The notes under the pieces: model-generated | The model's database searches: none | Seen by the model: the letters and a program-made list of their open reading frames with translations, nothing else | What the model was told of the DNA's origin: nothing | Part shown: positions 14,111 through 40,310 of the stretch, piece by piece | Layout of the letters: each line of letters starts with the position of its first letter | How positions within the stretch are numbered: the stretch's first letter is position 1 | Assembly (NCBI GenBank): GCA_030745875.1 | Contig: JASLNT010000022.1 | Coordinates: 1 to 64,000, forward strand | Length of the DNA stretch: 64,000 nt | Direction: 5' to 3' | DNA from: Phycisphaerae bacterium | GTDB taxonomy: Bacteria; Planctomycetota; Phycisphaerae; SM23-33 | Position numbers and translations under genes: made by a program

Positions 14111-15181
14111 TCAGGACCGTCTACGTCGGCGGAGCGTCGCCAAACCGCCCAACGCCAGCATCGACAGCGTGGCCGGTTCGGGGACCAGCAACAGGATTTC
14201 CGATTCGCTGCCGGGAATGGGAAAACCGCCGCCATCCAGCGCTTCGAGCCTCAGCGTGTAGGGCGACGCCGCGGTGCGATCTTCGGCGCCGGCGCGGGCC
14301 AGCTGTGCGAACGTGAGGAAATAGTCATCCACACTTCCGTCAGAGTCCGTATCGGGCAGTTCGGCGAGCATTGCAGAAGGCAAGGCCTCCGGCCCGCCGC
14401 TGATGCTCCAGCGATAGTTTGGGGCTCCGCCGACACAGTCCCCGCTCAACCAGATACCGTAAAACCCGCCGACCTGGGCGTCCCCGCCGGGAGTTACAGC
14501 AGCGGTTTCCAGCGGAAGCCCGTCCTGGAGGTCCTTCTGGGGCGCGATGATCTGCGTGGCCGGGTCGGGAGGAAGCGTGGCCAGCCCCTGAGGGTCTGGA
14601 TTTCTACCTAACCAAACGGATATGAAATTGATATTCCCGTCGCCATAAACACCTACACCCATCGCGGCCCAGGGGGTCTCCCACACGCCCCGATTGAGGA
14701 GCATGTCTCTATGGGGCGAACTGCCGTCCCAAAGGCTTACCGCCCGGGCCACGGTTAATCCGGCGCCGGCAGCCACAAGTTCAAATCCGATGTACGGATA
14801 GGCTCCGTTGGTGACCTCCGAGGGCTTGTCCCACATGCCCTGGGCGTATCGGTGGTCCGAGACATAACACAGCGGCGTCCAATTCCCATTGTCTGACCAG
14901 CTGTATAGAGTACACGGCATCCCTGAGGCCGGGTCAGTGTGCTGATCCGGGCGGTAGGTCACCAGGTCACGCGCATGGTGCTGGGCCACGTCGGTCAGCG
15001 AAACAGTTACCGGTATAGGGGCCAAATCATTGCTAGCGCGATATTCATTGACGGTCCGGCCGAGCAAATCGTCATCCGGCGTCAGAAACACATCCGCTCG
15101 CAGGACGGCGCTCCCGGCCGCCAGCACAAAAGCTGCGCCCGCAAGAATTGCAATGCATCCGACAGTGTAATTTTTCCTCAT
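14111..15181 (-). CDS. CAP (SCP-like) domain protein with PEP-CTERM anchor
   Basis: Exported 356-aa protein. It has a signal peptide (~1-30), a CAP/SCP-like domain (~40-195: TVNEYRASNDLAP, DVAQHHARDLV, and SPHRDMLLNRGV near the C-terminal end of the fold), a variable region, and a C-terminal PEP-CTERM sorting signal: VPEPATLSMLALGGLA and then RRRRRS. The PEP-CTERM tail is cut and processed by an exosortase (not in this window), placing the protein at the outer surface or in the extracellular matrix. CAP proteins can bind lipids or act as peptidases. It is preceded by a ~165-nt leader containing a structured element shared with the other PEP-CTERM gene. Confidence 0.8.
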   Translation of the reverse strand: MRKNYTVGCIAILAGAAFVLAAGSAVLRADVFLTPDDDLLGRTVNEYRASNDLAPIPVTVSLTDVAQHHARDLVTYRPDQHTDPASGMPCTLYSWSDNGNWTPLCYVSDHRYAQGMWDKPSEVTNGAYPYIGFELVAAGAGLTVARAVSLWDGSSPHRDMLLNRGVWETPWAAMGVGVYGDGNINFISVWLGRNPDPQGLATLPPDPATQIIAPQKDLQDGLPLETAAVTPGGDAQVGGFYGIWLSGDCVGGAPNYRWSISGGPEALPSAMLAELPDTDSDGSVDDYFLTFAQLARAGAEDRTAASPYTLRLEALDGGGFPIPGSESEILLLVPEPATLSMLALGGLATLRRRRRS

Positions 15182-15346
15182 CTTTCTTACCTTTCTCTAG
15201 TGCAGCGGCGCCGCATGTTCAGGGATCGCCGGGACCTACAGGGGCAATCCGCCATACGGCGCATTGCGGCCGCGGTCCGATACTGTAACCCGGAAGAGCG
15301 CTACCCCTCGCAGACGGCTCGGTCTGCGTATAGAGCCTTCACATCG

Positions 15347-15430
15347 TGGGAACTCGGCCGGTGCGGCCTTGAGGTGGTGCGAGTGAGCGAGACGCCCGTG
15401 CCTCGGTGTTGAGTAGCTCCGCCGCTCCCG
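15347..15430 (-). promoter_or_regulatory. Conserved structured leader element (copy A)
   Basis: An ~84-nt element in the 5' leader of the CAP/PEP-CTERM gene, about 165 nt before its ATG. It aligns over nearly its whole length with 38781-38867, upstream of the second PEP-CTERM gene. In transcript sense it begins CGGGAGCGGC and ends GCCGAGTTCCC, which can pair. Inside are GAGG...CCTC and GGCC...GGCC stems and a conserved core GGCACGGGCGTCTCGCTCAC. A variable part holds a hairpin in both copies with different sequence (GAG-CTA-CTC here). Function unknown. Confidence 0.5.
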
Positions 15431-15458
15431 AACATCTTAGCGAGCTTGAGCGAATTCA

Positions 15459-15487
15459 AGTATATCACAAGATGCCGATTTCACCAA
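15459..15487 (-). promoter_or_regulatory. Predicted promoter upstream of leader copy A
   Basis: Minus-strand TTGGTG (15482-15487), 17-nt spacer, TATACT (15459-15464). The conserved leader element starts 28 nt after the -10. Copy B has the same -35 and spacer, with the element 26 nt after its -10. Confidence 0.4.
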
Positions 15488-15711
15488 GGACAAACTCCGT
15501 ATAGAAGACGCCAGGAATCGGGCGAGATTCATGATTTCAACTCTTACAGGCCGGGCGCATCGTTTTCGCCAATTGCGGATCGGCGACCCATGTGTTCATA
15601 TGCCGGGAATTCCGAGGATGCCTGATGGCCCGGGACCATGTAAACCGTCGACCGGGTGACACGAACGCACGCGACGACCTGCGCTGTCGGGTCGGAATCG
15701 CAATCGGCCGG

Positions 15712-36698: not shown

Positions 36699-38705
36699 TT
36701 ATCTTCCCGCCCGTCGTTTCAACACCGCAACTCCGCCGAACGCCAAAAGCAGAACTGTCGCCGGTTCCGGTATAGGCGTCTGGGTGAAGCTCACTGTTGT
36801 CTGATCGAACGCCAGGAATGTCGGAAACGCCAGCGGGTCCCCGCCGTCAACACCGGGGTCGATGCCCAGGACGGTGAATCGGTCCACAGCCGTGGGAAAC
36901 GCGTGAAGGGCTCCTGCTGGAACGGTGACCGTTCCGTTAACGCTGTCGATGATCGTAAACAGTCCGTCGGCGTCGCCGACTGTACCCGGCAGGATTACTT
37001 GCGTAAAGTTCGACAGGCCGTTTGTCTCGTAGAGATACCCTTCAGCCGTCGGCGGATCGAACCATTGACCCTCGCCGGAAACGTTGTCGAACACCCACTC
37101 GCCTCGCAAGCCCGGAACGATGTTGTCGGGCACAACAGGATTATCCAGCGAACCGGGCCCACCGCCCGTGATCGAAGCAACAAACATGCCCGATGTGCTG
37201 TCTGTGAAGCTAAGCTGGTACGCCAACTGCCCCATATCGTTGAAGGAACTTGGGCTGCCGCTTTCCGTACCGACGCGGTCGAAGTGCCCGAAACCGCTAA
37301 TCGTCTTGAACACGCCCGGGCGGACCTCAACAACGTCGCCTGTGCGGTGGACAACCACCGGTTGTCCGTTGGCTGTCGCCAACAGGCCGTAATTATTAGC
37401 AGTGGTCACACCCGTGCCCCGCAGGGTGGATGTAAACGCCACCGCACCAGCGCCATTCAACGCCGGAGCGCTGAGATAATCGTACTGCACTCCGGGCGGA
37501 AGACCCGGAACCTGCCATCCTTCTCGAGCCACAAGGTTCAGCGAACCCGGTTTTCCGGTCCAAACTCCGTAGTCGTTGCTCCCGTATACGTTGGCGTGAA
37601 AGGCGACCTGTCCGGCGCTGTTGACGGATGGGGTCGTATAACGAATCCCCGAGAAGAACCCACCGCCCGTACCGGGAGCCGGATCGCCGTCGCGGGCCGC
37701 CAGAACCAGATCGCTGTACGACTTGCCGACCCATATGCCCTGCTCGTTGAAGAAACCGACCCCCGGACCGGTCACCTTGCCTTGGAAGGCGACCTGCCCG
37801 GCGTTGTTGAAGCCCATCTCAAACGGAATCTGGGAGAAAGTCACCCCTGAAGGCAAGTGCGGGGCCTGCTGCCCCACCATCGCCACCAACCCCAGGGACC
37901 CTCCAACATCAGACCAGATCGCCTGCTTGCCTCCCAGGCTGCCGTTCCACATATTCGCCTGGAACGCAGTGTTGCCTGCTGCGTTGATATACGGTGCGCT
38001 GAAACGCCACAGGTTCCAACCGGCGGGAGCCTCGGGCGGATGCGTATCGGCCAGCGCAACACTTCGCGAAGCTCCACCGCCCATCACCCACACACCATTA
38101 TAATTGAACTGGTTCGCACCGGCTCCCTGCATCCGACCCGTAAACGCCGCCTGCCCCGAGTCGTTGAAAGCCATATGCGTCTGGTAGTTGTACGTCGCGA
38201 ACGTCCAGCCCAGCGGCGCATCGGGGGCCTGAAGGGTATTGCGCGTAATCAGATTGGGTGAACCGACCGTAGCACTGTAAATGGTGTACACGAACGTACC
38301 CCCATTCTTGGCGAAAGGCTCAAAGGCGACCTGCCCGGCCCCGTTGAGAACCGAGTTCGAAAACGAATGGAACTGCGTCCCAACCGGCGCACCAGGGCAC
38401 GGATCGCCCGTCCGCGCTATTAATCCCAATCCTCCTTGCCCTTCAGACCATAAACCGTAATCGCGAACCTGGTAACCTATGCCCGGTCCGACCAGTTTGG
38501 CGCGGAACGCTACCCGACCCGAACCGTTTAGGCTGGCGTCGGCGAAGATTGAAGTAAATGAAGCGGTCAACTCCGTTCCCGGAGCGTGCTCACCGGACAT
38601 AATCACCGTTCGCACCGGGACTGCGACCGCAGGCGCCGATACGATCGCCATGATTAAGAGAACGAGCAGCGAGGATTCTACAAATTTGATATGCTTTCCG
38701 GTCAT
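36699..38705 (-). CDS. PEP-CTERM protein with repeated DUF7453-like units
   Basis: 668-aa surface protein. Signal peptide (~1-28), then about ten repeats (~30-560) containing motifs such as LNGAGQVAF and NSAGQVAFHA joined by LVAREGWQVPG-like strands, a choice-of-anchor-like C-terminal region, and the sorting signal PIPEPATVLLLAFGG followed by KRRAGR. Exosortase processing would anchor it outside. Repeat families of this type are frequent in planctomycete PEP-CTERM proteins. ATG 38705 has AAGGAG at 8 nt. The leader contains the conserved element copy B. Confidence 0.75.
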   Translation of the reverse strand: MTGKHIKFVESSLLVLLIMAIVSAPAVAVPVRTVIMSGEHAPGTELTASFTSIFADASLNGSGRVAFRAKLVGPGIGYQVRDYGLWSEGQGGLGLIARTGDPCPGAPVGTQFHSFSNSVLNGAGQVAFEPFAKNGGTFVYTIYSATVGSPNLITRNTLQAPDAPLGWTFATYNYQTHMAFNDSGQAAFTGRMQGAGANQFNYNGVWVMGGGASRSVALADTHPPEAPAGWNLWRFSAPYINAAGNTAFQANMWNGSLGGKQAIWSDVGGSLGLVAMVGQQAPHLPSGVTFSQIPFEMGFNNAGQVAFQGKVTGPGVGFFNEQGIWVGKSYSDLVLAARDGDPAPGTGGGFFSGIRYTTPSVNSAGQVAFHANVYGSNDYGVWTGKPGSLNLVAREGWQVPGLPPGVQYDYLSAPALNGAGAVAFTSTLRGTGVTTANNYGLLATANGQPVVVHRTGDVVEVRPGVFKTISGFGHFDRVGTESGSPSSFNDMGQLAYQLSFTDSTSGMFVASITGGGPGSLDNPVVPDNIVPGLRGEWVFDNVSGEGQWFDPPTAEGYLYETNGLSNFTQVILPGTVGDADGLFTIIDSVNGTVTVPAGALHAFPTAVDRFTVLGIDPGVDGGDPLAFPTFLAFDQTTVSFTQTPIPEPATVLLLAFGGVAVLKRRAGR

Positions 38706-38780: not shown

Positions 38781-38867
38781 CGGGAACTCGGCCGGTGGGG
38801 CCTGGAGGTGGTGCGGTGAGCGAGACGCCCGTGCCTCAATCAGTTGAAACAACTCCTGCCGCTCCCG
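38781..38867 (-). promoter_or_regulatory. Conserved structured leader element (copy B)
   Basis: An ~87-nt element 75 nt before the start of the second PEP-CTERM gene, aligning with 15347-15430. Its outer arms pair better (CGGGA with TTCCCG) and the variable hairpin is AGTTG-TTT-CAACT. The core GGCACGGGCGTCTCGCTCAC is identical to copy A. The TTGGTG -35 and 17-nt spacer are also conserved, which points to a transcribed leader. Confidence 0.5.
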
Positions 38868-38893
38868 TAACAAAGCAGGCTGGAGCAATGCAC

Positions 38894-38922
38894 ACAGTAC
38901 CACAATAACCACATATCACCAA
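38894..38922 (-). promoter_or_regulatory. Predicted promoter upstream of leader copy B
   Basis: Minus-strand TTGGTG (38917-38922), 17-nt spacer, TACTGT (38894-38899). The -10 is weak on its own; support comes from the parallel arrangement in copy A. Confidence 0.3.
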
Positions 38923-39095: not shown

Positions 39096-40310
39096 ATGGC
39101 AATCAAAATCCGCTGCGTTGACTGCAAGAAGAAGATATCGATAGACGAAGCGTTCGCAGGCGGGGTATGCCGTTGCCCGTATTGCACGGCGATCGTTTAC
39201 GTACCCGACGAAAGCAGTACAAAGAAACGCAAAGGACGCCCGGAGACACCCAGACGGCGCCCCAAAGCTCCGGCGTCTCGTCCGGAATTCCCGACTCCCA
39301 GACCCACGGCCCCGGCGACAGTCGATCCCAATGCGGGCACAGCCTTGGACGCCCCGGCGGCTGTCGATCCAAATGCGGGCACAGCCATAGACGCACCGGC
39401 GGCGGTCGATCCGAATGCAGGCACAGCCATAGACGCCCCAGTCGCTGTCGATCCCAACGCGGGCACCGCTATAGACGCACCGGTCACGGTCGATCCCAAT
39501 GCGGGCACAGCCATAGACATCCCGGCCGCGGTAGAGGAGCCCAAACCTCTCAAGACCGCAGATCAAATCGAGGCTGACAAAGCCCTGGCCGTAGCGCACG
39601 GACAGGCAAACATCCCCATGGCGACTCCGGTGAAAGTGCAGGGCATTGTGGCGATAGTTCTCGCAGTGCTGCTAGTGGGCATGATCGGAGGGATGGTGTT
39701 CCTGGGCGTACACCTGACAAATCCGCCGCCCGTGCTCGACGTGCCCGAAGATTACGGAAACACAGCCCTGACTACTCGCGACTTCCCAGCCGTCGCGGGA
39801 ACGATAAAAGTGACCACGCCGGTTGTCTATTGCATCGACACCAGCAGACCAATGGCCGAGGTTTTCGAACCGGCCGGGCAGATAGTCATCGCCTCAATCA
39901 AATCGCTCAAGGGCGGAAAATTCAACGTTATCCTGCTCGGTGAAGATGACGACAAGACCCTGAGCGCCCAACCGATCGCATCAGACAAGGCTGGCATCGC
40001 CAAAGCCCAGGCCTTCATAACGCTGGAATTGTGCGGAGCGGCCGAACAAGCCAGAGGACTCCAAGCCGCCCTCGACATGAATGCCAAAACCGTAGTTCTC
40101 CTGGCTCGCGACAGCGCCATGGGCGCCAAAAGCGTCGCCGAGGGAGCCTTCAAGGATAAATCCGTACCGCTGCACACCGTCATTCTGGCTGGCGCGTCGA
40201 AAGGCCTGTCCGAAATGGCGGAACTCACCGGTGGGAAGTCGAGGGAGTTGACGGTCTCCGACCTCGCCGAGCAGGCCAAGCGAGCGGCTGAACAGTTGAA
40301 GAACAAGTAA
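39096..40310 (+). CDS. Zinc-ribbon / repeat / transmembrane / VWA-like protein
   Basis: 404-aa protein. The N-terminus has a zinc ribbon (RCVDCKKKISID and CRCPYC, four Cys). A Pro/Arg-rich region is followed by five 14-residue repeats of the form VDPNAGTAIDAPA (residues 75-144). One transmembrane helix (~180-203) is followed by a VWA-like domain (~225-395) with CIDTSRPM in place of the canonical DxSxS metal site; the aspartate and first serine position are partly retained. Such proteins are common in planctomycetes. GAGGAAG precedes the start. Role unknown; the repeats may be a flexible arm. Confidence 0.65.
   Translation: MAIKIRCVDCKKKISIDEAFAGGVCRCPYCTAIVYVPDESSTKKRKGRPETPRRRPKAPASRPEFPTPRPTAPATVDPNAGTALDAPAAVDPNAGTAIDAPAAVDPNAGTAIDAPVAVDPNAGTAIDAPVTVDPNAGTAIDIPAAVEEPKPLKTADQIEADKALAVAHGQANIPMATPVKVQGIVAIVLAVLLVGMIGGMVFLGVHLTNPPPVLDVPEDYGNTALTTRDFPAVAGTIKVTTPVVYCIDTSRPMAEVFEPAGQIVIASIKSLKGGKFNVILLGEDDDKTLSAQPIASDKAGIAKAQAFITLELCGAAEQARGLQAALDMNAKTVVLLARDSAMGAKSVAEGAFKDKSVPLHTVILAGASKGLSEMAELTGGKSRELTVSDLAEQAKRAAEQLKNK
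39318..39527 (+). repeat. Five tandem 42-bp coding repeats
   Basis: Five in-frame units of 42 bp encode variants of the 14-aa sequence VDPNAGTAIDAPA plus one residue. Units differ at a few positions, mostly synonymous, so they are recent but not identical copies and could vary in number between strains. Confidence 0.85.

Follow-up and report, generated by a model that had tools for sequence, protein, structure and literature searches.

A putative structured leader RNA marking PEP-CTERM genes in one order of Phycisphaerae

Two PEP-CTERM genes in the window (the whole 64-kb stretch of DNA analyzed here) are preceded by copies of an element that is, in all probability, a 5'-terminal, cis-regulatory structured leader RNA marking a regulon of genes for PEP-CTERM cell-surface proteins in one planctomycete order; its transcription, its ligand or partner and its effect on expression are inferred. 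The order carrying it, within the Phycisphaerae, is probably uncultured. As part of the same leader-RNA reading, it is highly probable, though inferred from sequence alone, that a subset of the PEP-CTERM genes is co-regulated through the element. The family is probably order-specific and new, with no catalogued RNA family matched.

RESULTS

Two copies of the element in the window

An earlier note on this window had proposed a shared element with an identical core upstream of both PEP-CTERM genes. This held: both copies were confirmed on the minus strand, and the 20-nt core GGCACGGGCGTCTCGCTCAC, exact in the two, occurs exactly twice in the 64-kb window, against 0 expected from shuffles. Copy 1 spans 15348..15451 (minus strand, as are all features below), with a full-length match of 93.8 bits to covariance model R1 and E = 8.3e-16 with a second model, R2; copy 2 spans 38782..38886, with a full-length R1 match of 86.9 bits. 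Their 5' ends, 15451 and 38886, coincide with the predicted +1. Two measures in the note were corrected. The extent of about 85 nt (15347-15430 and 38781-38867) fell short, since the structure begins about 20 nt further 5', at 15451 and 38886, and the 26-28 nt given there from the -10 to the element are counted to GGGAGC, which makes up the loop and 3' strand of hairpin P1.

The element is about 100-105 nt long. It folds into P1, a variable P2, P3 and P4 (GGCC), and its 3' tail returns to pair with the loop region of P1. In copy 1, the 5'-terminal hairpin P1 (15416..15451) is built as GCUCA-A-GCU-C-GCU / AGC-GGC-GGAGC with GGG in its loop. P3 (15371..15404) has a GAGG..CCUC stem, the invariant UCGCUC loop and the strongest covariation of the whole structure; the P4 hairpin (15356..15368), read from the sequence as GGCCG-CAC-CGGCC, is paired in 91% of cells over the relatives. 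The invariant 3' tail GAGUUCCC (15348..15355) is complementary to the GGGAGC of P1, and this loop-tail pseudoknot is what the earlier note had described as an outer arm. The GAGG..CCTC stem, the GGCC..GGCC stem and the outer arms GGGAGC..GTTCCC that it listed are all present in the sequence. Its hairpin at the same place with a different sequence held only partly, being clear in copy 2 (AGUUG-UUU-CAACU) and weak in copy 1, and its place is the variable region P2 across the relatives. In some copies of the window's own genome, L046, L048 and L049 included, P2 contains an inserted AUUCGACC-UGAGCC-GGUCGAAU hairpin whose sequence recurs between copies.

The promoter described in that note also held for both copies, with the same -35 hexamer, TTGGTG (15482..15487 for copy 1 and 38917..38922 for copy 2), a 17-nt spacer and a -10 hexamer, TATACT at 15459..15464 and TACTGT at 38894..38899, all read from the sequence. 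The first conserved base of both copies lies 7 nt past the -10 hexamer, where a transcription start is expected. The gene downstream of copy 1 (14111..15181) has weak but significant matches to Pfam PF00188 (CAP domain, E = 1.5e-4) and to PF07589 (PEP-CTERM, E = 2.1e-4). The gene downstream of copy 2 (36699..38705) encodes a DUF7453 protein (PF24251, E = 6.4e-93) with a PF07589 match at E = 0.0039; taken alone, this match is under the family cut-off, but it passes in the genome scan (24.1 bits). Beyond copy 2, the reading frame at 39096-40310 contains a repeated stretch (window 39260-39520) of GTCGATCCCAATGCGGGCACAGCC-like units, which represents a short peptide repeat.

Family size and distribution

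Using copy 1 as the query, about 19 related stretches were found in the window's own genome, and their alignment revealed a promoter, element and spacing in common. Covariance model R1 retrieved 23 copies at E < 1e-3 from this 6.2-Mb draft, and the second model, R2, again gave 23. At the same threshold, about 135 copies were detected across the order: 26 of the 38 genomes searched carry the element, in 20 of 31 genera and two families, and the other 12 have PEP-CTERM genes and no detected copy. Among 391 other Planctomycetota, a single genome gave a marginal match (E = 0.0055, with about 4 expected by chance at the cut-off), and weak distant relatives could have been missed there because the search filters were stricter. 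In one member of the order, a stretch of 12 kb (L192, G034:C265:1-12017) carries about seven element copies along a one-strand PEP-CTERM run, in effect a tandem array of leader-plus-gene units.

None of the 4227 models of Rfam 15, known riboswitches included, matched the window at gathering scores, and in the stretch 15200-15560 around copy 1, the only one searched down to E = 10, no match was found either. The earlier note, too, had not recognized the element as a known riboswitch class. Likewise, a search of the open-access literature, with subscription journals outside its scope, found no paper that connects an RNA motif or a riboswitch to PEP-CTERM in such a sense.

The element precedes PEP-CTERM genes

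As the downstream gene of each copy we took the longest reading frame with a start no more than 700 nt 3' of it, and 138 copies were read in this way. A PEP-CTERM signature was present in 118 frames and absent from six; seven further frames were cut by a contig end, and seven copies, with too little sequence left, had no frame. PEP-CTERM genes are thereby found downstream of 118 of the 124 copies with a judgeable complete frame. Regarding the six exceptions, three (L178, L186 and L159) lie near a contig end, two (L212, on C57, and L215, on C103) look frameshifted or disrupted, and the frame behind L200 ends in a dockerin-like stretch. A two-sided control, restricted to loci with flanks on both sides, placed a PEP-CTERM gene in the sense direction in 27 of 29 cases and in the divergent direction in none of the 29. 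When the 114 downstream proteins were clustered after trimming the N-terminal 40 and C-terminal 35 residues, they fell into 58 clusters; therefore, the leader was not merely inherited with one duplicated gene, and most downstream proteins are otherwise unrelated.

The window's own genome encodes about 90 PEP-CTERM C-termini, and the element is found at roughly a quarter of them. No degenerate copies were detected, with filters off, at 23 other PEP-CTERM loci of this genome, each taken as about 1.5 kb on either side of the C-terminus, a span that leaves the starts of long genes outside. All 45 relatives tested have PEP-CTERM matches and 44 have a detectable exosortase, the element-free genomes included. 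The link to exosortase expression suggested in the earlier note was not supported, because the copies precede PEP-CTERM cargo genes and there is no significant match at the single exosortase of the window's own genome (C63:6600-7373).

Some individual loci of this genome deserve description. The gene behind its best-scoring copy (L212, region G000:C57:139791) has a scrambled PEP-CTERM-like tail with a partial Pfam PEP-CTERM match nearby, possibly the result of a frameshift or an assembly error. On C103, two elements (L003 and L215) diverge, about 400 nt apart. Y1 transposase genes occur within about 1.5 kb of elements at G000:C103:12900-14830 (L003, L215) and at C70:12800-14370 (L011), and on C103 such a gene overlaps a short frame, seemingly a disrupted gene, that lies behind the minus-strand element and has a signal-like start.

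Covariation supports a structured RNA

Single-copy folding energies were mostly no better than those of shuffles, so the case for structure rests on comparison. Over 112 copies from relatives, P1, P3, P4 and the loop-tail pairing were paired in 89.1% of cells. Changes on both sides were seen in 25 of 28 pairs, with 272 double-change cells against 76.1 (SD 8.2) for shuffled and 14-59 for slid partners. These counts are inflated because the main alignment was fitted to the model; in an unfitted MAFFT alignment of 19 copies from the window's own genome, the P3 double changes are already present, and P3 stem variants are visible by eye (GAGG/CCUC, GGCAGG/CCUGCC and GGGUGUG/CACACC). P1 shows covariation in all three of its helices over the 112 copies, its inner GCU:AGC helix being nearly invariant. 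Furthermore, G-U pairs outnumbered A-C mismatches (309 versus 114; 24 versus 6 in 13 copies of the window's own genome in the unfitted alignment), as would be expected were the sense strand to act as RNA.

The conserved bases that are unpaired, or that have more than one pairing option, comprise GGGAGCGG, the UCGCUC of the P3 loop and AGUUCCC. The loop-tail pairing GGGAGC:GUUCCC was paired in 94% of cells, with nine double-change cells. The claim that the outer arms can pair is backed by convincing individual cases of compensatory change: GUGGGC/GUCCAA in family f2 (U-A and G-C for G-C and A-U), GAGAGC/GUUCUC and GGAAGC/GUUUCC. The P1 and loop-tail arrangements compete for three base pairs, because this AGC has a second partner, the GCU within P1.

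Two further candidate features were rejected. Pairing of the UCGCUC loop with GAGCGG was 95% complementary but nearly invariant, and its covariation did not exceed that of shuffles; an anti-Shine-Dalgarno-like CACCUCC in P3 was dropped, as it is not kept in other copies.

Promoter, position and downstream region

Aligned at the -10, the family promoter reads TTGaca, a 16-17-nt spacer and TGnTATAAT (an extended -10), and in 74 copies the element starts 6-8 nt past the -10 hexamer. From this sigma70-type promoter, transcription is predicted to start at the base with which the element, and P1, begin; the placement is inferred from the sequence alone, and no transcript has been shown. The start codon lies a median of 114 nt downstream of the element (5-95%: 45-363). 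Four loci carry two tandem elements 34-36 nt apart. These pairs (L146, L184, L188 and L192, genus g9) have a similar linker (AAACCGAAAGU.AUAGUCUGU), with one PEP-CTERM gene after each pair.

A U/G-rich segment (UGUGU, GUUUU) follows at a fixed distance, 12-20 nt past the tail, over about 135 copies, with a T fraction of 0.37-0.53 versus about 0.22 further down. A terminator hairpin does not explain it: the preceding hairpins come to -1.2 kcal/mol versus -1.4 kcal/mol for shuffles, and across the family there was no enrichment of an upstream partner arm or of terminators within 90 nt of the element. We also rejected an intrinsic terminator overlapping the 3' CCC, for which hand-picked examples looked convincing but energies were not different from those of shuffles and no partner arm was found. 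Only about 11 copies, mostly of the window's genus, have a second hairpin that shows compensatory differences and leads into a UCUU-like tract. Copy 1 is among them: an alignment of downstream hairpins places this hairpin, ending in a UCUU tract, at 15294..15339, with terminator-like folds in its relatives. In these copies it may be an attenuator, which we regard as no more than possible.

DISCUSSION

The sequence comparison supports the cis-regulatory leader RNA reading already offered in the earlier note, with transcription and function still inferred. That note had also named a covariance model as the check on this reading, and the outcome was favorable: further copies lie almost only in PEP-CTERM 5' leaders, in the sense direction, and their stems covary strongly. 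Several points limit the claim. No transcript, ligand, partner or expression effect has been shown, and no general expression platform was found; in addition, 12 of the 38 genomes have no detected copy and the majority of PEP-CTERM genes in the window's own genome are unmarked.

We consider it likely, by inference, that the leader is a two-state switch, either riboswitch-like or protein-binding. In the proposed mechanism, the transcript would begin at the first base of P1, and the RNA would fold into P1, P2, P3, P4 and the tail. The AGC would then have two possible partners, one within P1 (GCU:AGC) and the other in the tail (GGGAGC:GUUCCC), giving two states, and a shared factor, whether a small molecule or an RNA-binding protein, would read the invariant bases and set the balance between them. 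With the start codon about 45 to 360 nt further on, the element is unlikely to mask the ribosome site directly, and we infer that it acts on transcription elongation or on the stability of the mRNA. The AGC exchange is the best candidate for the switching step, a possibility that remains inferred.

Whether the factor is a small molecule is less certain. The element meets one criterion for a riboswitch, a conserved covarying domain in the 5' leaders of related genes, and the evidence on an expression platform consists of no general terminator, the second hairpin in about 11 copies and the competing pairings GCU:AGC and GGGAGC:GUUCCC. Within the leader-RNA reading, and without ligand-binding data, we rate a small-molecule riboswitch as falling slightly short of an even chance. 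A bolder version, to which we would not quite commit either, is a new riboswitch class whose ligand would report the state of the cell surface or exopolysaccharide and which would set PEP-CTERM output in uncultured Phycisphaerae by switching between two folds, the P1 apical stem and the loop-tail pseudoknot.

The rival that survives best is a protein-binding leader, in which a single RNA-binding protein, recognizing the invariant loop and tail, exerts joint control over the PEP-CTERM messages. It remains possible, being favored by the invariant short single-stranded motifs and the GGA at a hairpin loop. CsrA is the obvious candidate because of the GGGA at the P1 loop, and the element resembles CsrA/RsmE-regulated leaders in this GGA and in its place in the 5' leader, with csrA present in most genomes of the order (33 of 38). 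Unlike those leaders, however, the ANGGA consensus is not kept (its A occurs in only 33 of 102 copies), and far more RNA is conserved than CsrA needs, which leaves the conservation of P3, P4, UCGCUC and GUUCCC unexplained. Moreover, csrA is equally present in element-free genomes. On these two grounds, the lack of the consensus and a csrA distribution that does not follow the element, a CsrA site was rejected; another protein is not excluded.

A transcription attenuator, in which the element governs an intrinsic terminator further downstream, with the final CCC of the tail forming part of the terminator's 5' arm, would draw on the U-rich peak 12-20 nt past the tail and on the second covarying hairpin with its UCUU-like tract in about 11 copies. 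It is unlikely, as the hairpins that precede the U-rich segment do not exceed shuffles in strength, and neither the partner arm nor terminators within 90 nt are enriched. Similarly, a constitutive 5' stabilizer, with P1 and a compact fold shielding the messages from decay without sensing, would fit a P1 that starts at the predicted first base of the transcript and a variable distance to the start codon. We doubt this too, because a plain protective stem would have no need for UCGCUC and GUUCCC to be invariant, or for two pairings that compete and show compensatory changes.

A DNA-level operator, that is, a large transcription-factor site just past the promoter, could account for the position fixed relative to the promoter; it is very improbable given a length of about 105 nt with variable internal spacing, pairs kept while the sequence changes and the excess of G-U over A-C. 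Finally, a mobile intergenic repeat (REP or similar), reaching PEP-CTERM genes by chance insertion or duplication and raised as the alternative in the earlier note, is all but ruled out: the element resembles REP elements with RAYT (Y1) transposases in being multi-copy, short and hairpin-bearing, and the same genome has eight Y1 (REP-type) genes, of which two (on C70 and C103) lie no more than about 1.5 kb from elements, but, unlike such repeats, it is about 105 nt long and fixed in place and orientation at PEP-CTERM promoters (27/29 sense, 0/29 divergent) instead of scattered, its diverged copies show compensatory base changes, and six of the eight Y1 genes are not listed near an element.

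As a structured leader, the element can be compared with two known kinds of system. It is like the orphan riboswitch candidates and structured leader motifs identified by comparative genomics (Weinberg et al. 2010, PMC2864571) in being a covarying multi-helix RNA in the 5' leaders of functionally linked genes, with an unidentified ligand. It differs from them in that what unites its genes is a protein sorting signal instead of a pathway, in its restriction to one order and in having no Rfam 15 match. Haft et al. (2006, PMC1569441) described a PEP-CTERM cis-regulatory site associated with PrsK/PrsR, found in Proteobacteria only; it is a DNA site bearing the -24/-12 motif of sigma-54. Both that site and the element described here are shared upstream elements marking many single PEP-CTERM genes per genome. 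In contrast to the PrsK/PrsR site, the planctomycete element comprises a sigma70-type promoter and then a structured RNA; the sigma-54 motif (-24 GG, -12 GC) is not met by the family promoter consensus, TTGaca / TGnTATAAT.

The regulation of PEP-CTERM genes outside Proteobacteria was left open in 2006 (PMC1569441). As a concrete, testable marker of the regulon, the element offers an RNA family found almost exclusively at PEP-CTERM genes, together with a covariance model, a promoter, a predicted start and candidate switching bases. If the leader-RNA reading is true, this would be an RNA regulon set by protein destination and sorting signal instead of by metabolic pathway, which would be unusual, and its ligand or partner could tell what these bacteria sense when building their surface.
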